From Shewanella sp. (GTDB taxonomy: Bacteria; Pseudomonadota; Gammaproteobacteria; Enterobacterales; Shewanellaceae), in assembly GCF_013214165.1 (NCBI RefSeq), contig NZ_JABSSM010000031.1, positions 1-55,496 of the forward strand: a stretch of 55,496 nt of DNA, in the 5' to 3' direction. The position numbers were made by a program, and so were the translations under genes. Below, piece by piece: positions 24,598-33,757 of the stretch. Position 1 is the stretch's first letter; each line of letters begins with the position of its first letter. The notes under the pieces were generated by a model. It did not search any database. It saw only the letters and a list, made by a program, of their open reading frames with translations, and was not told where the DNA came from.

Positions 24598-26100
24598 ATG
24601 AATGCCGAGATAGAACTAAAGTTATTTTTCCAGTTAGAACAACAACAAGCCTTGATTGATCTGCTCGATAGTCTGCCAGATAGTGAGCAGAAAGCCTGCC
24701 GATATCTGTCGAATGGTTATTTCGATACCCCAGATCTACAGCTGCGACGTTGGGACATGGGGCTCAGGGTTCGTGGCTGCGATGGCAAGCGTGAACAGAC
24801 CATAAAAACCGCAGGGACAGTGATTGGCGGGATCCATTCGCGACCAGAATACAACATTGATATAGATCGAGCCGAGCCAGAATTAAATTTATTTCCTAAA
24901 AACATATGGCCAAACGCGGCGAATATTTCAGCGGTGCAATCTCAATTGACCTGTTTGTTCAATACTGATTTTGACCGGCGAACCTGGCATATTTATGTGG
25001 ATGAGAGCCTGGTCGAAGTTGCCTTAGATATAGGTAAAGTGAGTGTCACCAGAGAGGGTGAAACCAAATTTGAGCCGATTTGTGAGTTAGAATTCGAGCT
25101 GATGGCGGGCAAAACTGGGGCCTTAATTGACCTGGGAATTAAGGTGGCCGCAAGTATTCCCGTGCGTTTAGGCAAGGCGAGTAAGGCTTTTCGAGGCTAT
25201 CGCTTGGCGGCGCAATCGAGCCCATTAAGTCTGGAGGCGCTGGAGTTTATCGCCTTAGAACCTGATCAAGATCTTAAGCAGACACTGGTATCACTGTTAA
25301 GCACATGCCTGGATCGCTGGCAGCAGCTAGAAGCCATGATATTAGAAATTGGGGATCATGGCCTGAAGCAATTGCCAATGCTTTGCTATCGCTTACGTGC
25401 CTGCGTGCGACTGCTAAGCGGAACCTTAGCGCAGTTTAATCTGCTGAGCGATAGCCTAGTGGCTCAGTTCGACGCAATTGAGGCTCACTTGGCTTTCGTC
25501 GAGACTGGACTGAGTCTGGCCGAAATATTGCGTCACAATGGTCAGCTTATCGCTAAGCAGCCCCAGCAGGGTAAACTAGCCGATCAGGCCTTAAGATCAC
25601 TGCAGCAGTTATCTATCTCGAGTCAGATGCAGAAGATGTTAGCCGATACTCGTTATGGCAGTCTGCAACTTAGTCTGGTCGATCTCTTGTTCGCCATACA
25701 GGCCGGAGAGCTAGGCATAGGTACTAACACAGATCTTAAGCGTTTTGCCGATCAGATGCAGCAAGCCTCCTGGCAGAAAATATTGACCTTGATGCCTGCA
25801 AAAACCGACTTGAGCAGTCGAGACTACCAGATTTTTGCTCGTGCATTGGACGACAGTATGTTTGTCGGCGTGGCATATGGCGCGCTTTATCCAAGGCAAA
25901 CCAGGGATGTATTCAGGGCGCCGTGGCAAGATTTGGTTTTAGGGATCAGAACCTTGGCCGCCTATCGACAGTTGGCTCAGATCAGTGAATCCCTGGATAT
26001 CGATATCTCGGACTGGCTACAGAATAAACAGGAGAGTCTGGTGTTTGCCCTGGAGCACTCGAGACGCTCGGCACTGAGCAATCAGCCGTATTGGAAGTAG
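24598..26100 (+). CDS. ygiF: CYTH-CHAD inorganic triphosphatase
   Basis: A 500-residue protein. The N-terminal CYTH domain (about 1-205) begins MNAEIELK with the metal-binding ExExK motif at E4, E6 and K8, and has further conserved charges such as RGCDGKREQTIK. The C-terminal CHAD domain (about 225-490) is helical and rich in conserved basic residues, and binds polyphosphate in relatives. The E. coli homologue hydrolyses tripolyphosphate. The family start sets the ATG at 24598; an earlier TTG at 24529 would add 23 residues. The stop codon TAG lies inside the first REP element. Confidence 0.85.
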   Translation: MNAEIELKLFFQLEQQQALIDLLDSLPDSEQKACRYLSNGYFDTPDLQLRRWDMGLRVRGCDGKREQTIKTAGTVIGGIHSRPEYNIDIDRAEPELNLFPKNIWPNAANISAVQSQLTCLFNTDFDRRTWHIYVDESLVEVALDIGKVSVTREGETKFEPICELEFELMAGKTGALIDLGIKVAASIPVRLGKASKAFRGYRLAAQSSPLSLEALEFIALEPDQDLKQTLVSLLSTCLDRWQQLEAMILEIGDHGLKQLPMLCYRLRACVRLLSGTLAQFNLLSDSLVAQFDAIEAHLAFVETGLSLAEILRHNGQLIAKQPQQGKLADQALRSLQQLSISSQMQKMLADTRYGSLQLSLVDLLFAIQAGELGIGTNTDLKRFADQMQQASWQKILTLMPAKTDLSSRDYQIFARALDDSMFVGVAYGALYPRQTRDVFRAPWQDLVLGIRTLAAYRQLAQISESLDIDISDWLQNKQESLVFALEHSRRSALSNQPYWK

Positions 26101-26316
26101 GACCGGCTTTAGCCGGGAGAGAATCGATAGATTGAACCTCGATAGATTGAACCTCGATAGATTGAACCTCGGGGCTAAAGCCCCTCTTACAGTAGGACCG
26201 GCTTTAGCCGGGAGAGAATTATTGATTGAACCTCGATGGATTGCATCTCGGGGCTAAAGCCCCTCCTACGGGGATTGAATTTGGCTTGATTGCATCGGGG
26301 CTAAAGCCCCTCCTAC
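26097..26316. repeat. Cluster of five REP-type palindromic elements
   Basis: Elements at 26097-26119, 26170-26190 (inverted), 26192-26214, 26249-26269 (inverted) and 26296-26316 (inverted). Each begins GTAGGA and has a stem CCGGC-TTTA-GCCGG or GGGGC-TTTA-GCCCC. They are arranged as two head-to-head pairs plus one, like bacterial interspersed mosaic elements. Between the first pair the 15-bp unit GATAGATTGAACCTC is repeated three times (26126-26170). The outer elements supply the stop codons of the two flanking convergent genes. Confidence 0.9.
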
Positions 26317-27140
26317 GGCCTAGGCTCTTCTTTCCCTTCTCTTATCTCTTCACGTAAATTATTTATCTCTGCCAACAACACATTCTGGTTCTTTTCCATG
26401 CGGTCGATGGCCATCTTGAGTTCACATTTTATCTCTTCGCTCTGGCTTTCAAGTTTCTCTGCTTCATCGGGGGCGATAAAGATCGATGCCATATAACCTG
26501 AGATCACGCCGAAGAAGCTCACTCCACAGATGATAACTATCGCGCCTATCACATGACCGGCAGTCGATACTGGATAGAAATCACCATAGCCCACGGTGGA
26601 TATGGTGACTAATGCCCACCAGATGGCGTGTTCTGCCGTTTGAATGTTCGCATCCGGTAAACCTGTCTCGACGATCAGCATCAACACAGATGAGAAGGTT
26701 AATATGGTCACCATGGCGACCAGCAGACTAGCTAAGGTCGCTTGCCTGCGCTGTTTCACCATGGGGATGATCATAGAGTGGGTCATACGGATCAGGCGGA
26801 TCACGCGTAAGATCTGAAATAAACGCGCTAGCCTCAGGGGCTCAATGGCGGGGATACTGGCGACCAGATCGATCCAATTGTGTTGCAGGTATAGGAGCTT
26901 GTTTTCGGCTCTAAATAGGTTAAAGAAAAAATAACTCAAAAATATCATGCAGATACTAAAATCTATCATCAGGAGTAAACGGTAGGTCTCCTCCTCAAGG
27001 CTGGCGAAAGTGAGTAGCAGCACCACGATGACAGCCAAGAAAGACAGGGCCATCATGGCTAACTGGAATGGGGTTGGGTGAGTCTCAGTTGCGGGGAACC
27101 ATCGACTTAATTTTACCATTTCGCATGCATCCGTTTTCAT
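26313..27140 (-). CDS. Voltage-gated-type potassium channel
   Basis: A 275-residue ion channel. Six membrane helices are predicted, with a voltage-sensor-like S4 (R103, R106, R112, R115 and R118, about every third residue) and the selectivity filter TVGYGD at 182-187. A charged coiled coil (about 225-265) may tetramerise the channel. It is the last gene of the leftward eight-gene run with PspA, DUF350 and DUF2491 genes, which hints at a role in membrane potential under envelope stress. The TAG stop lies in a REP element. An alternative start at 27119 would remove seven residues. Confidence 0.85.
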   Translation of the reverse strand: MKTDACEMVKLSRWFPATETHPTPFQLAMMALSFLAVIVVLLLTFASLEEETYRLLLMIDFSICMIFLSYFFFNLFRAENKLLYLQHNWIDLVASIPAIEPLRLARLFQILRVIRLIRMTHSMIIPMVKQRRQATLASLLVAMVTILTFSSVLMLIVETGLPDANIQTAEHAIWWALVTISTVGYGDFYPVSTAGHVIGAIVIICGVSFFGVISGYMASIFIAPDEAEKLESQSEEIKCELKMAIDRMEKNQNVLLAEINNLREEIREGKEEPRP

Positions 27141-27191
27141 CCTATCGCTAGGTTAGCGATGAGATACTCCATTGATATCTGACTGAGTGTA

Positions 27192-27521
27192 CTAGTTTTT
27201 ATCACTAAAGTGGATGAGATCGTCCAGTACTCGCTTCTTTATTTCCAGCTGGGACTCAGGCGGAAGGTCATATTTCTGGGCTAGCTGCTCATAATCTTCA
27301 AGGTTGAGAGACACGGTAAGGCGTGGACGTTTAGGTCGCTTAGTGACCGAGAGTCCTAAGATGGTACGGATCTGATCCGAGGGGCTAAAGCCCGAGTCTA
27401 GCGCGGCCTTGCGGATGGAATACTGAAATTTTTCATCTAAGTCAAATGCCACCTGAGTCGCTTTCGCGGCTTTCTGGTTTTGTAGCCATTGCTCCGGAAG
27501 CGAGCTCTTTTTCTTAGTCAT
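27192..27521 (-). CDS. Ribbon-helix-helix-like protein
   Basis: A 109-residue basic protein not known to me by name. Two segments look like ribbon-helix-helix folds: residues 23-55 (VAFDLDEKFQYSIRKAALDSG, then FSPSDQIRTIL) and residues 68-103 (RLTVSLNLEDYEQLAQKYDLP and the helix after it). A basic KRPKRPR link joins them. A DNA-binding role is an inference. It sits between the channel gene and the DUF2491 gene on the same strand and could be the local regulator. AAGG precedes the ATG. Confidence 0.6.
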   Translation of the reverse strand: MTKKKSSLPEQWLQNQKAAKATQVAFDLDEKFQYSIRKAALDSGFSPSDQIRTILGLSVTKRPKRPRLTVSLNLEDYEQLAQKYDLPPESQLEIKKRVLDDLIHFSDKN

Positions 27522-27723
27522 TCGGTATTACCTTAAAATTAATCTTAATAATAAAATGGTGCTTAACACTCAGTTCCTGGTGCTAGTGCCTAGACCTGAG
27601 ATGTCGCTGTGCGGTACAATCAAGACGATGCTGTGTTGGTAGCGCTAAGACGATGTTTATCGAACAGACCTAGTCGTCCGCGAAGCGATAGGCCACAGGC
27701 CGTCGTCTTAGCTTATCGTGGCC

Positions 27724-28377
27724 TTATTTCCCGGGCCAATAATCTCGAATATCGCTAAGGGGGCGGTACAAGGTTAGCATGACATCGGTATCGCCATCGG
27801 CATAGACTTCTACATTGACGGCACATGTCTCATCTTCGTCCAGCAGGTGATAGGACTCAAATTCATCGCCTGTGGCACCATCTGCATCCTGTGGTGGCTT
27901 CTTGCCTCGGTAATCTTCACGATGGAAGTAACCAAATTTAGCGAAGTTGACCTGGTGGTATTCCTTGCCTAACCACTGAGAAAATTCAGCAACCAGCTCT
28001 GTGGGTAGGGTCAAGGTAGTTAATTGTGCCAGTTTATCTTCTTCGAATATGCTGCCAAACTGATCCAGATCGAAAATATTTTCAACGATAGAACGGTTGA
28101 TCTTAATGGAAAAGGCCAGATAAGTTTCATCGTCTTCATCGAGCGACAAGAAGATAGTTTCATTTCCATGCCCCTTGAGTGCCCATTCAGTCTCTTGTTT
28201 ACGTTGGTATTCATAGGTGCTGATGGATTCCACTCGTAACTGCTGACCCCTAAGTTGAGGCGGCAGGGCGAAGCTATCATCCAGAGAGATCATATCTCCC
28301 ACTAGGAGTTTAGAGGGATGATCTAGCTGACGCTGGGGCGCCTCTTTCTTACCAAAAAGACCTTTAAAAAAACTCAT
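27724..28377 (-). CDS. yjfK: DUF2491 protein, YjfK-like
   Basis: A 217-residue soluble acidic protein of the DUF2491 family, seen in E. coli as YjfK beside a PspA homologue. It starts MSFFKGLFGKKEAP; the ATG at 28377 was chosen because AGGAG lies five bases before it. Conserved acidic stretches (LDEDDETYLAFSI, HLLDEDETCAV) run through the protein. The molecular role is unknown. It follows the PspA gene with a 218-bp gap containing 7-bp tandem repeats and the palindrome TGTCATATGACA, so it may have its own promoter or processing site. Confidence 0.8.
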   Translation of the reverse strand: MSFFKGLFGKKEAPQRQLDHPSKLLVGDMISLDDSFALPPQLRGQQLRVESISTYEYQRKQETEWALKGHGNETIFLSLDEDDETYLAFSIKINRSIVENIFDLDQFGSIFEEDKLAQLTTLTLPTELVAEFSQWLGKEYHQVNFAKFGYFHREDYRGKKPPQDADGATGDEFESYHLLDEDETCAVNVEVYADGDTDVMLTLYRPLSDIRDYWPGK

Positions 28378-28548
28378 CATCACTCCTGAGTTGTTAATGT
28401 AGATGTTAAGCCGATTTTCCCCTACAGGGGATCACTCGACAAGTGCTTCGATGGTTTGCCAGCTACAAATTATTTGCGGCTTAAGACAAAAGAGCGCCTT
28501 TCTTTATGAAAAGAAAAGCGCTGTATTCTTAGTCGATGTATGACAGGT

Positions 28549-28576
28549 TAGTGTCTAGTGTCTAGTGTCTAGTGTC
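28549..28576. repeat. 7-bp tandem repeat, TAGTGTC x4
   Basis: Four exact copies in the gap between the PspA and DUF2491 genes, running into TGTCATATGACA (28573-28584), a perfect palindrome. Confidence 0.9.
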
Positions 28577-28595
28577 ATATGACATCTAATCGCGA

Positions 28596-29282
28596 TTACT
28601 TACGTGCCTTGAGGCGATCCAATACGGCATTCGCGTTTGACTTCTGCTCACCGATGCCGGCTTCGGCAAGTTTCGCATGCAGAGACTTATCGCTGTTCTC
28701 TTCTTCTAGCGCTTCGGATGCCTTTAGGCGGTCATCGAACTGCTGTTGACGGGCCTTGATGCGTTCCAGTGAATCTTTGGCATTTAACAGCTTAGAGTTG
28801 CTGCCGGCGAAAGAGTTAGTGATCGACGCAGTGGCCTTCTGTACGCTCTCAGTGGTCTTTACCATAGTGAGTTGACGCTGATAGTCGGTCAACTGACGTT
28901 CAGTCTTACGTACCAGATCTTTAAGACGCGCGGCGTGAGAACTGAAGCTGTCGTTTGCTGACTGCTGCTCGACAAGTTCCTGATCGAGCTGAGCGATCTT
29001 CTCGGCAACTTCTAAGGCGAGGGCTTCATTCTCTTGTGTTAATGCTTGAGTCACAAAACCTTCATGCTCTGTGATTGAACGCTTGAGGCGGTCTATTTCA
29101 CGGCTGGCTTGCATCTCCTTGGCCATGACTTCGGTCAGTTCACGCTTAGCCTTAGTCAGGTGCTTCTCTGCATCACGGATCTCCTGCTCGAAGATACGGG
29201 TTGAGTTTGCGTCGACTATGTTCTGACCAACTTCGTTGGCGCCGCCACGGAAAGCGGTTAAAATCTTGTTTAGTATGCCCAT
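28596..29282 (-). CDS. yjfJ: PspA/IM30 family protein, YjfJ-like
   Basis: A 228-residue coiled-coil protein of the PspA/IM30 (ESCRT-III-like) family, which polymerises on stressed inner membranes and protects against proton leakage. The N-terminal amphipathic helix (GILNKILTAFRGG) is followed by long helices from residue 25 to about 180, then a C-terminal segment ending AVLDRLKARK. The start has AAAGGAG seven bases upstream. No pspF, pspB or pspC is present; its partners are the DUF2170, DUF2491, DUF350 and SpeE-like genes, as in yjf-type loci rather than the classical psp operon. Confidence 0.88.
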   Translation of the reverse strand: MGILNKILTAFRGGANEVGQNIVDANSTRIFEQEIRDAEKHLTKAKRELTEVMAKEMQASREIDRLKRSITEHEGFVTQALTQENEALALEVAEKIAQLDQELVEQQSANDSFSSHAARLKDLVRKTERQLTDYQRQLTMVKTTESVQKATASITNSFAGSNSKLLNAKDSLERIKARQQQFDDRLKASEALEEENSDKSLHAKLAEAGIGEQKSNANAVLDRLKARK

Positions 29283-29325
29283 GATGTGGCTCCTTTAAAA
29301 ATTAGTTAATTAAATTGCGTATAAA

Positions 29326-29739
29326 TTACTTGAGAAAATTGCTCATCTCATCGATGACTTCCAGACAGTTATCAGACAGGACAGAAAGCTCCTGTTCGAT
29401 TTCCTGCATATCCGAGAGTACAGATAGGGCACCATAGACCACGTACTTATCATCTACTTTTGCGAAAGATGACAATGGCATAGGAATGTTTAACTCCAAC
29501 ATGGTCTCAAACATCGCCATGCGACTCTCTTGTATGACTTCATCTTCACCCCAAAGGTAACTGATACAGAGGATCTGATTTTCTGTTACCGATACAAATA
29601 CGGGTATCTCTTCACGACCTAGGATATTTACCTGTAACACTTCAACTTCACCATCGATAGGATAACAATCGAATTGAAGCCCTGTGTGACTCTTGTCACA
29701 AAGATCATTGAGGTGGTTAGCAATATTGTGGATATTCAT
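29326..29739 (-). CDS. yjfI: DUF2170 protein, YjfI-like
   Basis: A 137-residue acidic cytoplasmic protein of the DUF2170 family. It is linked to PspA homologues in E. coli (yjfI-yjfJ) and elsewhere. Start ATG at 29739 with AGAGGA six bases upstream; the reading from 29757 overlaps the putative operator. Conserved segments include FCYPIDGEVEVLQVNILGREE-like strands and LCISYLWGEDEV. The function is unknown. Two copies of the 13-bp palindrome lie immediately upstream (29753-29765 and 29787-29799), suggesting that a separate transcript starts here for the DUF2170 and PspA genes. Confidence 0.82.
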   Translation of the reverse strand: MNIHNIANHLNDLCDKSHTGLQFDCYPIDGEVEVLQVNILGREEIPVFVSVTENQILCISYLWGEDEVIQESRMAMFETMLELNIPMPLSSFAKVDDKYVVYGALSVLSDMQEIEQELSVLSDNCLEVIDEMSNFLK

Positions 29740-29752
29740 ATTTGTCCTCTTT

Positions 29753-29765
29753 GACATATTATGTC
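29753..29765. promoter_or_regulatory. Palindromic operator candidate, proximal copy
   Basis: GACATATTATGTC, a perfect 6+1+6 palindrome, ends 14 bp before the DUF2170 start, next to its ribosome-binding site. A repressor here would block initiation or translation. Confidence 0.6.
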
Positions 29766-29786
29766 TGCGGTTAAAGATAGCATCAC

Positions 29787-29799
29787 GACATAATATGTC
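29787..29799. promoter_or_regulatory. Palindromic operator candidate, distal copy
   Basis: GACATAATATGTC, centred 34 bp from the proximal copy, which is about three helical turns. It overlaps the stop codon of the SpeE-like gene. Confidence 0.6.
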
Positions 29800-31555
29800 A
29801 AGTGCTATTCTTGAGAAAAGTCATAACGCCCTGGTTTTCTGACCAGGCCTGCTGGTGGTACTGGTATAATTGCATAGATCCAATCTTGTTGGCTTGGATC
29901 TGGTCTATATCACGATAGAAATTCCTCGGGAACTCGAAAGCGCCCTTGATAAGCCCTGGCGTCAGCCAATCATCGGTTATCGACAGCTGCTCTATGTCAC
30001 TCAGCCTTGCCTTAGCGTTCTTGCCCGATGCCGTGGCTATGCTCCAACCCCATTCACCGAAACTCGGTACGTTATGATGGTACTGGCTAACATCGAAGCC
30101 TGCGATGGCTAAGGTCTTTCCTACTGAGATAAAGGCCTTCTTTGCATGATAGGGGGAAGTCGACTGTACCGTTAGAGCACCATCGGCATTCAAGAGTTCC
30201 TTGAGTTTCTTATAAAAAAGATCTGAGTATAGCTTGTTGAGATCCGGATGGCTGGGATCTGGCAGATCCACTATGATGACATCATATTTCAGGCCTTGCC
30301 TCAGCAGCTTATCTACGCCATTGAAGGCATCATCCACCAAGACCTCCACCCTAGGATCATTCAAGGCGTCGCCATTGAGCTTGAGCAAGGTTTGACTCAA
30401 ACGCAGGGGCATATCGGCGTCGTGGGAGCTGAACAGGGCCAGCAGATCCTTATCGAGATCCATCAAGGTGACGTGTTTAGGCTGCCACTTCAATACTTGT
30501 TTTAGCCCTAATCCATCGCCGCCGCCGATGACCAACACCTTGTCGTGGCGCGCCGCCGCTTCCATGGTGGGGTGGACCAGGAAGGCATGATAGATATGCT
30601 CATCCTGACTGGAAAACTGTAATCTGCCATTGATATACAAGGAATAAACAGGATCCATGCCACTGCCTCTCAGTCGCTCGGTGAAGGTGAGCTGCTGAAA
30701 ACGAGTCGACTTGGCATAGATAACATTATCTTTATAGAGCAAGTTATTGAAGTTCTGCTCCCAGCCGGGTCCATGCCAGGCCAGTAAGAGTAATATTCCC
30801 GATGCGAAAAAGTGGCCCACCAACAAGACTTTCACCCATCTGATGCGATCCCAGAACCGCCAGATGAAGATAAAACCTGCCAGTAGATTAAAGCTGGCTG
30901 TGAATGCTGCCGCAAGCTGAATATCTATGGCCAGCATAAAGGTCACCCAAATGGCGGCGCCAATACCTGCACCTATATAGTCTGCGCCATAGATGGTGCC
31001 GGCATTGTGCATCAGGTGTTCATCACATAGGGACTGACGCACGCGGGCGATGAGGGGGATCTCCATGCCGATCATCAAGCCGAGCACGACGCCCCAGAAA
31101 TAGGGCAGATACTCACTCAATTGCTGTAACAGGCCGATGAAGCCGCCTTCGGGGAGTTGATCCGGCGGTAGTCCTAGGGTGCTGGCGATGATCTGGGGCA
31201 GTTGTTGACCGAAACCGATAACGGCGGCGGTGATCAATATGGCCAGTGACCCACAGAGGGCGACACTGAGTTCGAGCACGACAAAGCCTGTGAAGGCGCA
31301 ACGTATCTTTCTGGCGGCGAAGGCTCCGACGCCCATGGAGACGATCATCAGGCCAATCATGGTGTAGATTGCGGCCTCTAACGCCCCCAGGATACGACCG
31401 GCGTAATGGGAGAGGAGATACTCATAGATCAAACCACAGCCGGCGAGTACGGCCATGATGCCTAGCAGTAAGGTATCGTCGAACCTGCTGAGTCTTCTTG
31501 GTTGGGTTGTCGAGTGGGTATTAAGCGCTTTTTCAGTCACTTGTATCTCTTGCAT
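29798..31555 (-). CDS. Membrane-anchored spermidine-synthase-like enzyme
   Basis: A 585-residue protein. The first 230 residues or so hold about seven membrane helices (from LLGIMAVLAGCGLIYEYLLSHYAG). The rest is a polyamine aminopropyltransferase-type domain with YSLYINGRLQFSSQDEHIYH, the nucleotide-binding GGGDG at 344-348, LMDLDKD and IIVDLPDPSHPDLNKLYS. It should use decarboxylated S-adenosylmethionine or SAM; the acceptor is unknown. The fused membrane domain suggests modification of a lipid- or membrane-associated substrate, not soluble spermidine synthesis. It sits between the DUF350 and DUF2170 genes. Confidence 0.82.
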   Translation of the reverse strand: MQEIQVTEKALNTHSTTQPRRLSRFDDTLLLGIMAVLAGCGLIYEYLLSHYAGRILGALEAAIYTMIGLMIVSMGVGAFAARKIRCAFTGFVVLELSVALCGSLAILITAAVIGFGQQLPQIIASTLGLPPDQLPEGGFIGLLQQLSEYLPYFWGVVLGLMIGMEIPLIARVRQSLCDEHLMHNAGTIYGADYIGAGIGAAIWVTFMLAIDIQLAAAFTASFNLLAGFIFIWRFWDRIRWVKVLLVGHFFASGILLLLAWHGPGWEQNFNNLLYKDNVIYAKSTRFQQLTFTERLRGSGMDPVYSLYINGRLQFSSQDEHIYHAFLVHPTMEAAARHDKVLVIGGGDGLGLKQVLKWQPKHVTLMDLDKDLLALFSSHDADMPLRLSQTLLKLNGDALNDPRVEVLVDDAFNGVDKLLRQGLKYDVIIVDLPDPSHPDLNKLYSDLFYKKLKELLNADGALTVQSTSPYHAKKAFISVGKTLAIAGFDVSQYHHNVPSFGEWGWSIATASGKNAKARLSDIEQLSITDDWLTPGLIKGAFEFPRNFYRDIDQIQANKIGSMQLYQYHQQAWSENQGVMTFLKNST

Positions 31556-31615
31556 TGAGGAAAATAAAACGGCTAATCAGATGATTAACCGTATTTGCTT
31601 GTTTCGCTAGCGAAT

Positions 31616-32515
31616 TTAATACATCAAGCTGGTGAGGATGAGCGCCACGGCGACACTGATGGCCAGCTCTACGGTAGCGATACCTATGTTGTGCTGCTGC
31701 TCAACTTCCTGGGCTAGGTTGATCTTGGACAGTACCAGTTTCTTGACTAATTTTATTAAAATCGTCAGTGCCACCAACATGATCACCGAGAAGACAAGCC
31801 AGCCGATGAGGTTCGCGAGGTAGGCCTTGGGGTCATAGACGATGAAGTGACTCGCGGCGTTGAAGCTCAGTGCCATGGCTAACATATAGCCGCTATGACG
31901 GATAGCCACTGCAGTATGGCCTTGGACTAGGGCATCTTGCATGGAAGCATCTTGATTACGCTTGGCATATCTGTACTCACGAAAACGGGTCAGCAACACC
32001 AGCATCAGCTGAGAAATGGCGAATGCACTGAAGATGGCGATGAAGGTATCCAGAGTCAGATCTTCCGCCCAGATGAGTACCGAGCGGATGATGATCGCCG
32101 TGGCTATCGCGGCGCAGGCATCGACGATGGCTACCGAGATATTGCCCTTGAGGATCTGTTCACCCTTGTTGAACTCATTGAGGGCAATCTTATCGTGAAG
32201 ATATCGACCTAGCTTGATCAGTATCAGACCGAATAAGCCGTAAGCACTCATGCCGATGGCCTCGGCAAGATAAGAGTCGGCGGCCTCTCCGGAGATGGCT
32301 CCGGTAAGTACAATACCTAGGCCCGCGATGGCGCCGGCTGTGCTGATGCCGAAGGCGAAGTTATCTCTCTCTGCCAGTTCGACCCGGCTATCGACCTTGG
32401 CCGTCCAACCCTGCAGATAACGCATCAAGGTGAGCAGAATAATGGCGATGGTCAGATCGATAACTAGGATGATGGCCAGATCGCTGGTTATGCCGAAGTT
32501 TTGAAATAATGTCAT
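31616..32515 (-). CDS. yjfL: Double DUF350 membrane protein, YjfL-like
   Basis: A 299-residue inner-membrane protein with about eight helices. It reads as two DUF350 units: residues about 10-140 and about 150-299, each with glycine/alanine-rich helices (GAIAGLGIVLTGAI in the first, VELAISVAVALIL near the end). E. coli YjfL has a single unit of about 130 residues. DUF350 proteins co-occur with PspA homologues; their function is unknown. AAGGA lies seven bases before the ATG. The gene follows the lipoprotein gene by 13 bp. Confidence 0.82.
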   Translation of the reverse strand: MTLFQNFGITSDLAIILVIDLTIAIILLTLMRYLQGWTAKVDSRVELAERDNFAFGISTAGAIAGLGIVLTGAISGEAADSYLAEAIGMSAYGLFGLILIKLGRYLHDKIALNEFNKGEQILKGNISVAIVDACAAIATAIIIRSVLIWAEDLTLDTFIAIFSAFAISQLMLVLLTRFREYRYAKRNQDASMQDALVQGHTAVAIRHSGYMLAMALSFNAASHFIVYDPKAYLANLIGWLVFSVIMLVALTILIKLVKKLVLSKINLAQEVEQQHNIGIATVELAISVAVALILTSLMY

Positions 32516-32528
32516 GTGAATTCCTTAC

Positions 32529-33488
32529 CTATTTGCCTCGGCGTACACCGCGAGTCGTGCGACTGTTAGAATTGCGCAAGTTACTACTCTTAGAGTAATT
32601 AGAACGGAACTTGCTGCTACTTGTACTGCGAGTACCTGCGGTGCTCGCCTTAGGTGCACTTGTGCTTTGTCTCGATAGGCTGGTTGAGCCCGAGCGTGAT
32701 TTGGCATAGGGACTATCGAACTTCCTCCCTTGTGAGTTGAATTGCTTCTTGGTGCGCTCGAAGGTCTTATTTTGCGCGCTGGCCTGTTTAGGTGACGTAT
32801 AGCGGTAACGACCGACATCGTTGTAATAGCTGTAGTTTCTTCGGCCAGACCAACGATCGTAGCCGATAGGTCCACGCATCACATTGGAGAACATGGAATA
32901 CATGCCGTACCAGGCCCAGAAGGACATGCCGTTAGAACCTGTCTGCCAGTTGCCATAACCTGGGTTACCCACAAGTTGACTGCCGGCACCGAAGTCTTCG
33001 GCGCCGTTGGCGAGTGCCGCGGCCTCGCGGCTAATGGAGTTCACCCTGGCTAGCGCGCCATTAGACATGTCGGCGACCACATTGAGTGGATCGGAGAGCA
33101 TATCGTTATACAGGCTTGTATCGGCGGCATGATAGACATTTTCCGCTTCGGCTAACTGCTGATCGAGATCCACATAGTTACTGGGATTACTGAGGTCTCG
33201 ATATCGACTCACCAGAGAGGTGTACATGGGGCCCTGAGTGGTCGCATCTTTGGCGAGTTCACCAAATAACGGCGCCATGTCCGGATTCTGCCGTGCCATA
33301 ATACCCGTGTACTGTTTGAGTAACATTGCATTACGGATCTGGCCGTCATTGAGCATCTGGCCCAAGGTATCGATTCTCTGGCCGGCTAGTTGCTGAAATT
33401 GAGCAATTTTGTCTGGCCTGTCATCGCCACAACCGGCTAAGGTCAATAGCAATGTAAGGGTGAGAATACGCATAAGCATCGCTGCCAT
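32529..33488 (-). CDS. Uncharacterised lipoprotein heading the yjf-type cluster
   Basis: A 319-residue protein with a lipoprotein signal (LTLLLTLAGC; cysteine at residue 20, followed by Gly-Asp). The middle (about 25-190) is helical, and residues 170-215 are rich in Gly, Tyr and Trp (SFWAWYGMYSMFSN). The last 90 residues are a disordered Ser/Arg/Lys-rich tail ending RTTRGVRRGK, suited to contact acidic membranes or polymers. GGAG precedes the ATG by six bases. It starts the eight-gene leftward run and diverges from glnE. The family is not known to me. Confidence 0.78.
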   Translation of the reverse strand: MAAMLMRILTLTLLLTLAGCGDDRPDKIAQFQQLAGQRIDTLGQMLNDGQIRNAMLLKQYTGIMARQNPDMAPLFGELAKDATTQGPMYTSLVSRYRDLSNPSNYVDLDQQLAEAENVYHAADTSLYNDMLSDPLNVVADMSNGALARVNSISREAAALANGAEDFGAGSQLVGNPGYGNWQTGSNGMSFWAWYGMYSMFSNVMRGPIGYDRWSGRRNYSYYNDVGRYRYTSPKQASAQNKTFERTKKQFNSQGRKFDSPYAKSRSGSTSLSRQSTSAPKASTAGTRSTSSSKFRSNYSKSSNLRNSNSRTTRGVRRGK

Positions 33489-33712: not shown

Positions 33713-33725
33713 GACATAATATGTC
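33713..33725. promoter_or_regulatory. Palindromic operator candidate in the divergent region
   Basis: GACATAATATGTC, identical to the copy at 29787-29799. A half-site, GACATATCTATAT, lies 20 bp to the left at 33693. It is 33 bp before the glnE start and 225 bp before the lipoprotein gene. Confidence 0.6.
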
Positions 33726-33757
33726 GACAGCCAAAATTGTTAAGGATCATTATTGCA

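Follow-up and report, generated by a model that had tools for sequence, protein, structure and literature searches.

A conserved palindrome and a predicted ribbon-helix-helix repressor at a PspA–aminopropyltransferase cluster of Shewanella

An eight-gene cluster in Shewanella sp. (NCBI RefSeq assembly GCF_013214165.1, contig NZ_JABSSM010000031.1; 55,496 nucleotides analyzed, hereafter the window) encodes a lipoprotein, a double-DUF350 membrane protein, a SpeE-like aminopropyltransferase, a DUF2170 protein, PspA, a DUF4178-like protein, a small protein of predicted ribbon-helix-helix (RHH) type, and a potassium channel. We propose, with a probability of roughly 0.7, that the RHH protein represses the cluster by binding the palindrome GACATAWTATGTC in both of its predicted promoters; the palindrome would likely serve as its target also at htpX and other membrane genes elsewhere in the genome. 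Its role as a regulator is a strong prediction from sequence, and a membrane-integrity regulon is assigned to it because the palindromes occupy fixed positions relative to promoter-like hexamers, are conserved, and are co-distributed with the RHH gene.

Six exact copies of the 13-letter palindrome occur in the source genome (4.8 Mb, 99.99% complete), against 0.18 expected from base composition. Three of them belong to the cluster: a pair around the DUF2170–pspA promoter and one on the lipoprotein promoter. Every one of 60 genus genomes carries 4–9 copies; a reversed control pattern is absent from 58 and found once in 2. For the RHH protein, 370 named relatives were listed; we followed the sites through the loci, of up to 18 kb, of the best 80 (hereafter the named loci). 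The exact pair precedes DUF2170 in 80/80, at a spacing of 31–38 bp (34 bp in 67), the exact third site precedes the lipoprotein gene in 77 of the 79 that have that gene, and no further exact copy is present in any of the 80. Site columns are nearly invariant (mean 1.95–1.99 bits), against 0.5–1.2 bits in the flanks.

The region's two best sigma-70-like matches coincide exactly with palindrome sites. At the DUF2170–pspA promoter, the −35 hexamer lies inside operator 1 and the start region is covered by operator 2 (Table 1). The region contains 15 promoter-like sites compared with 10.9 in shuffles, so hexamers alone prove little; the promoter argument rests on hexamers coinciding with conserved palindromes. 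Judged by the ribosome-binding site and the operator position, 29739 is the better start for DUF2170, and the majority consensus of the named loci has aagga...atg behind operator 2. Operator 3 lies ~33 nt from the start of the divergent glnE (glutamine synthetase adenylyltransferase) in the window, and ~32 nt from it in most genus loci; glnE might be affected by it too.

Palindrome and RHH gene were distributed together across 295 genomes of the order: 69 had both, 22 the RHH gene only, 13 the palindrome only, and 191 neither, which places the palindrome in 69/91 RHH genomes versus 13/204 others. Families of mixed composition (f numbers) allowed the same comparison internally. With versus without the RHH gene, the palindrome was present in 7/7 vs. 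1/16 genomes of f6, 5/5 vs. 0/18 of f7, and 5/6 vs. 0/16 of f25 (hand counts); f1 (21/21 vs. 0/1) and f16 (8/8 vs. 1/1, by hand) added little to this test. Among the RHH genomes without the palindrome, 21 of 22 belong to f11, where a drifted version, GACATTWAATGTC, was found in 24/24 genomes and stood at the DUF2170 promoter in 8/8 loci read. A change in the RHH strand was considered as the source of the f11 drift and rejected: The consistent V to I exchange is also seen, by eye, in L053, which has the standard operator.

Beyond the cluster, the site survey covered genus genomes and 15 genomes outside the genus. It set aside cluster loci L043–L054 and L093–L132 and collapsed identical 40-nt contexts, after which L056, L059, L062, L174, and L192 gave no new row, and it comprised 106 sites. 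A permissive rule placed a candidate open reading frame (ORF) start within 260 nt of 103/106 sites, and more than one candidate gene is available for 41 sites. The named target groups, together with lipoprotein/glnE and other small-protein groups, account for 88/106 sites. The largest are htpX (24 sites, 8 of them outside the genus in f12, f15, and f25), NfeD (20, 4 outside), and DUF2170 (12), followed by a bPH-domain group (7), a small membrane protein (6, in three loci), a CAAX-type protease (4, in two loci), NhaA (4) and band-7 (3), both in f6 only, and AIM24 (once). In the source genome, the three sites outside the cluster stand before htpX, a gene for a small membrane protein, and an NfeD gene with two genes behind it that by eye resemble band-7 genes. 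The named target functions concern membrane integrity or ion balance.

Spacing at these targets is regular. In 24/24 htpX promoters, from f1, f12, f15, and f25, a CTTGA element, which we take to be an RpoH-like −35, begins exactly 19 nt before the site does. Of 20 NfeD promoters, 15 have TATAGT beginning exactly 21 nt behind the site; it is missing at the four sites outside the genus and at one genus site.

Table 1. Cluster genes, operators, and predicted promoters in window coordinates
Feature	Position	Strand	Evidence
Lipoprotein gene, Ctha_1186-type by position	32529..33488	-	ORF, LAGC lipobox by eye, basic Ser/Arg-rich tail
Membrane protein, two DUF350 repeats (YjfL type), 299 aa	31616..32515	-	PF03994, two stretches, 133.7 bits
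SpeE-like aminopropyltransferase domain behind hydrophobic N-terminal half	29798..31555	-	PF01564 residues 319-513, 116.1 bits
DUF2170 / YjfI / BacA-type (CesT/Tir-fold) gene, start re-assigned	29326..29739	-	PF09938, 123 bits
pspA (YjfJ type)	28596..29282	-	PF04012 (PspA_IM30), 135.7 bits
DUF4178-like gene (219 aa), not DUF2491	27724..28383	-	DUF4178 match 20.4 bits, cut-off 25
RHH protein, predicted repressor	27192..27521	-	
Voltage-gated-type potassium channel	26313..27140	-	PF00520 (Ion_trans, 58.9 bits), PF07885; filter TVGYGD by eye
Operator 1, DUF2170–pspA promoter, overlapping −35 TTGACA	29787..29799	.	Palindrome + promoter scan
Operator 2, near predicted start site of DUF2170–pspA promoter	29753..29765	.	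Palindrome
Operator 3, over −10 of predicted lipoprotein promoter	33713..33725	.	Palindrome + promoter scan
Sigma-70-like promoter TTGACA-16-TATCTT, TG before −10	29774..29801	-	10/12 matches, joint best of region
Predicted lipoprotein promoter TTAACA-16-TATTAT	33716..33743	-	10/12 matches, joint best of region

The eight leftward ORFs that the initial annotation placed at 26313–33488 are present in the ORF listing, all on the minus strand, and its calls of a K+ channel, PspA, DUF2170, a SpeE-like domain, and two DUF350 stretches were all matched in family scans; the genome's two DUF350 matches both fall within the one ORF. Its DUF2491 label, the family of E. coli YjfK, had to be given up: The 219-aa protein has no DUF2491 match at E ≤ 1 and is DUF4178-like instead, which leaves three rather than four families in common with E. 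coli yjfIJKL. Of four orthologues scanned, one scored above the DUF4178 cut-off (27.6), one below (20.0), and two gave no match. The lipoprotein has no fitting family match in Pfam or NCBIfam model scans. REP-like inverted repeats (GTAGGACCGGCTTTAGCC / GGCTAAAGCCCCTCCTAC) occur in several copies 3' of the channel gene, at 26096–26320, and their core GGGGCTAAAGCCC recurs within the RHH gene at 27373–27393. Two terminator-like hairpins, one of 13 pairs at 28493–28522 (minus strand) between pspA and the DUF4178-like gene and one at 31569–31592 after the DUF350 gene, could reduce expression of the genes behind them; a scan of the region for such hairpins gave no excess over shuffles.

Within the genus the cluster is a stable unit. 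By RHH protein, two Shewanella benthica loci come closest among those named (94 and 93% identity), the lipoprotein gene was found in 79/80 named loci and the channel in 78/80, and all eight genes are colinear in 76/80; the other four are two contig ends (L260 and L266), L203 without a channel match, and L255 without a SpeE match. The expected co-occurrence in Shewanella is thereby borne out, and the cluster's conservation supports a functional unit. Scattering of the genes in relatives is not seen within the genus and is partly seen outside it, where the cluster splits into two modules. The lipoprotein–DUF350–SpeE and DUF2170–pspA–DUF4178–RHH modules stand apart in 16 loci read (f2, f11, and f12), and the former stays together in all 16 away from pspA. 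These separated lipoprotein modules have no operator within one mismatch of GACATWWWATGTC, and the same holds for L289 (f23) and L290 (f7), in which DUF2170 and pspA follow. Outside the genus, loci that keep the lipoprotein gene next to the DUF2170 unit have the exact third site in 8/11 judged cases (missing in L107, L109, and L115; L102 is cut).

The K+ channel directly follows the RHH gene in 13/13 complete genus loci and in 10/38 loci outside the genus. A genome without an RHH match, G267, carries a paralogous lipoprotein–DUF350–SpeE cassette (30, 24, and 31% identical) that also has a channel (35%), and we tie the channel to the SpeE module because of it. In four f15 loci (L104, L124, L127, and L130), DUF2170 and RHH genes are retained along with a channel, and tblastn detects no PspA in the ~1-kb gap between DUF2170 and RHH; the gap may hold a strongly diverged PspA.

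In the SpeE-like enzyme, GGGDG, DxxDP (DLPDP), and a YH pair are invariant in all 24 aligned homologues (alignment A2: 23 of 25 SpeE proteins of at least 500 aa, plus the source genome's), the domain aligns to solved spermidine synthases, and the protein scores 669.6 bits against NCBIfam PRK03612 (cut-off 472). Elsewhere in the genome, speA, a eukaryotic-type AdoMet decarboxylase, and speB lie side by side (L318, G000:C93); the decarboxylase scores 182 bits with PF01536, above cut-off, and 127 bits with TIGR00535, short of the 233-bit cut-off. Of its 120 listed relatives, many bear Shewanella names. The bacterial-type enzyme, PF02675, is absent from the source genome and from 21/21 genus genomes sampled. 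The idea that the SpeE-like enzyme cannot use decarboxylated S-adenosylmethionine for want of a decarboxylase was dropped in view of the PF01536 gene, and the missing PF02675 in 55/78 SpeE genomes therefore proves nothing, because the eukaryotic type exists. Intact active-site motifs and substrate genes make aminopropyl transfer likely, and by its motifs the predicted membrane-anchored SpeE-like enzyme is the only canonical aminopropyltransferase found in the genome. In f2, all four loci read have a short AdoMetDC-like gene behind SpeE. In one, L188:4054-4377, a 107-aa protein directly behind the SpeE-like gene scores 49.5 bits with TIGR03330 (below cut-off) and keeps an ESH...H..PE motif by eye; it has no clear genus relative (1/40 genomes, E 3e-4, 29%).

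The locus could instead be an ordinary spermidine-synthase locus beside pspA: The operator would then control scattered membrane genes along with the pspA unit, and the lipoprotein–DUF350–SpeE module would be merely positional. Ordinary spermidine production is, if anything, favored by the speA–AdoMetDC–speB row; the genome's two other, weak Spermine_synth matches lack DxxDP (by eye); and the modules do separate in f2, f11, and f12, the lipoprotein module then lacking the operator. We nonetheless consider a purely positional module unlikely: The third site, which covers the best −10 match, is retained in 77/79 named loci, it lies 46–159 nt before the lipoprotein gene in eight f6, f15, and f16 loci with glnE beside that gene, and full-length SpeE co-occurs with RHH in 77/78 genomes, the lone exception being a contig that ends inside the DUF4178 gene, before the RHH gene's place.

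The initial annotation's RHH-like, possibly DNA-binding protein has no match to any RHH family in Pfam; its assignment follows Ravi et al. 2024 (PMC11237479), who name an RHH gene, and draws on modest structural matches. A first AlphaFold2 (AF2) model (39 sequences, predicted template modeling score [pTM] 0.44) with a Foldseek search, and a search of solved structures using a profile built from the RHH alignment, returned nothing useful; a tandem, two-domain RHH protein was rejected when comparison of the halves gave out-of-register matches only. The alignments held 38 of 49 locus RHH proteins (95–135 aa) plus the source genome's (A1), and 30 locus proteins, 67 of 120 listed proteins, and the source genome's (A3). 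The palindrome could be real and read by a regulator encoded elsewhere, the small protein having another job. Besides the modest fold evidence, this would suit the absence of an f11-specific strand change in the RHH protein and the near-constant presence of DUF2170 with the RHH gene in the loci read. We regard it as quite unlikely, however, given that the RHH gene is the only recognized DNA-binding candidate in the cluster, that it accompanies the operator pair in L110–L112, where only DUF2170, pspA, and RHH were detected, and that palindrome and RHH gene covary inside three families. An activator site at which the RHH protein turns genes on would fit the position 21 nt upstream of TATAGT at NfeD but is very improbable, since sites cover the TTGACA −35 and start region at DUF2170, the −10 at the lipoprotein gene, and, before htpX, the stretch expected to contain an RpoH −10.

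Under the repressor model, RHH proteins would sit on two sites covering the −35 and the start region and keep a near-consensus promoter off. Membrane damage would free them, perhaps via DUF2170 or PspA; in E. coli, PspA acts on PspF, a model for this release step. PspA, HtpX, NfeD/band-7 proteins, the lipoprotein/DUF350 pair, and the K+ channel could then restore the bilayer and ion balance, and the SpeE-like enzyme would provide the membrane with aminopropyl groups, either in spermidine or on some other acceptor. Membrane stress would likely induce the palindrome-bearing genes jointly. Evenly balanced, in our estimate, is the broader proposal of a Psp-type response in which an RHH repressor replaces PspF and a 13-bp operator unites PspA, a membrane-anchored aminopropyltransferase, a K+ channel, HtpX (with an RpoH-like promoter), NfeD/band-7 scaffolds, and f6 NhaA across several families of the order. 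In the papers found, the PspA–polyamine operon is known as a gene neighborhood only; with an operator and a candidate regulator it becomes predictable which genes respond jointly, the stress signal gains a reporter, and the reason why a spermidine-synthase-type enzyme sits in the membrane beside PspA can be tested in a laboratory strain.

Proteins AAN56744–AAN56747 in the work of Ravi et al. we take to be from Shewanella oneidensis; its main text does not name Shewanella. The cluster belongs to their "second major group" of PspA neighborhoods, which has a DUF2170 (CesT/Tir)–PspA dyad, a 7TM-spermidine-synthase-like enzyme, a double DUF350, a lipoprotein, DUF4178 and, in some cases, an RHH gene (PMC11237479); here likewise the dyad stands beside a Spermine_synth domain and DUF350 is double. 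The authors suggest that systems of this kind monitor polyamine concentration or aminopropylation. Joint action of PspA and polyamine chemistry at the membrane, as first annotated, is reasonable, and conservation backs the unit, but it is already in print for this operon type (PMC11237479). Their section on the second group describes no operator, regulon, or K+ channel, and a channel is placed in their third group (PMC11237479), whereas here it adjoins RHH. Apart from their mention of the RHH gene, searches of open-licence PMC papers, judged by listing, gave no report of this regulon; the cluster is known, the K+ channel is an addition, and the operator and regulon were not found in print.

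Three further systems frame the comparison. E. coli yjfIJKL shares DUF2170, PspA, and DUF350 and is a proposed heat-tolerance operon, strongly up-regulated in strains evolved under heat; the study ascribes this to a promoter deletion (PMC12492005). It is a four-gene set without RHH, SpeE, or channel, and has DUF2491 where the DUF4178-like protein stands here. Pseudomonas aeruginosa bacABCDEF shares the DUF2170–PspA core; loss of BacA (DUF2170) raises its partner proteins, and a sigma-54 site is proposed there, in contrast to the sigma-70-like promoter with palindromes here (PMC10948618). By analogy, the yjfIJKL and BacA data fit an envelope-stress system with internal negative control. The E. 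coli PspF/PspA regulon likewise puts stress-induced PspA under a dedicated regulator, with PspF and sigma-54 in the role that a predicted RHH repressor would take here instead.

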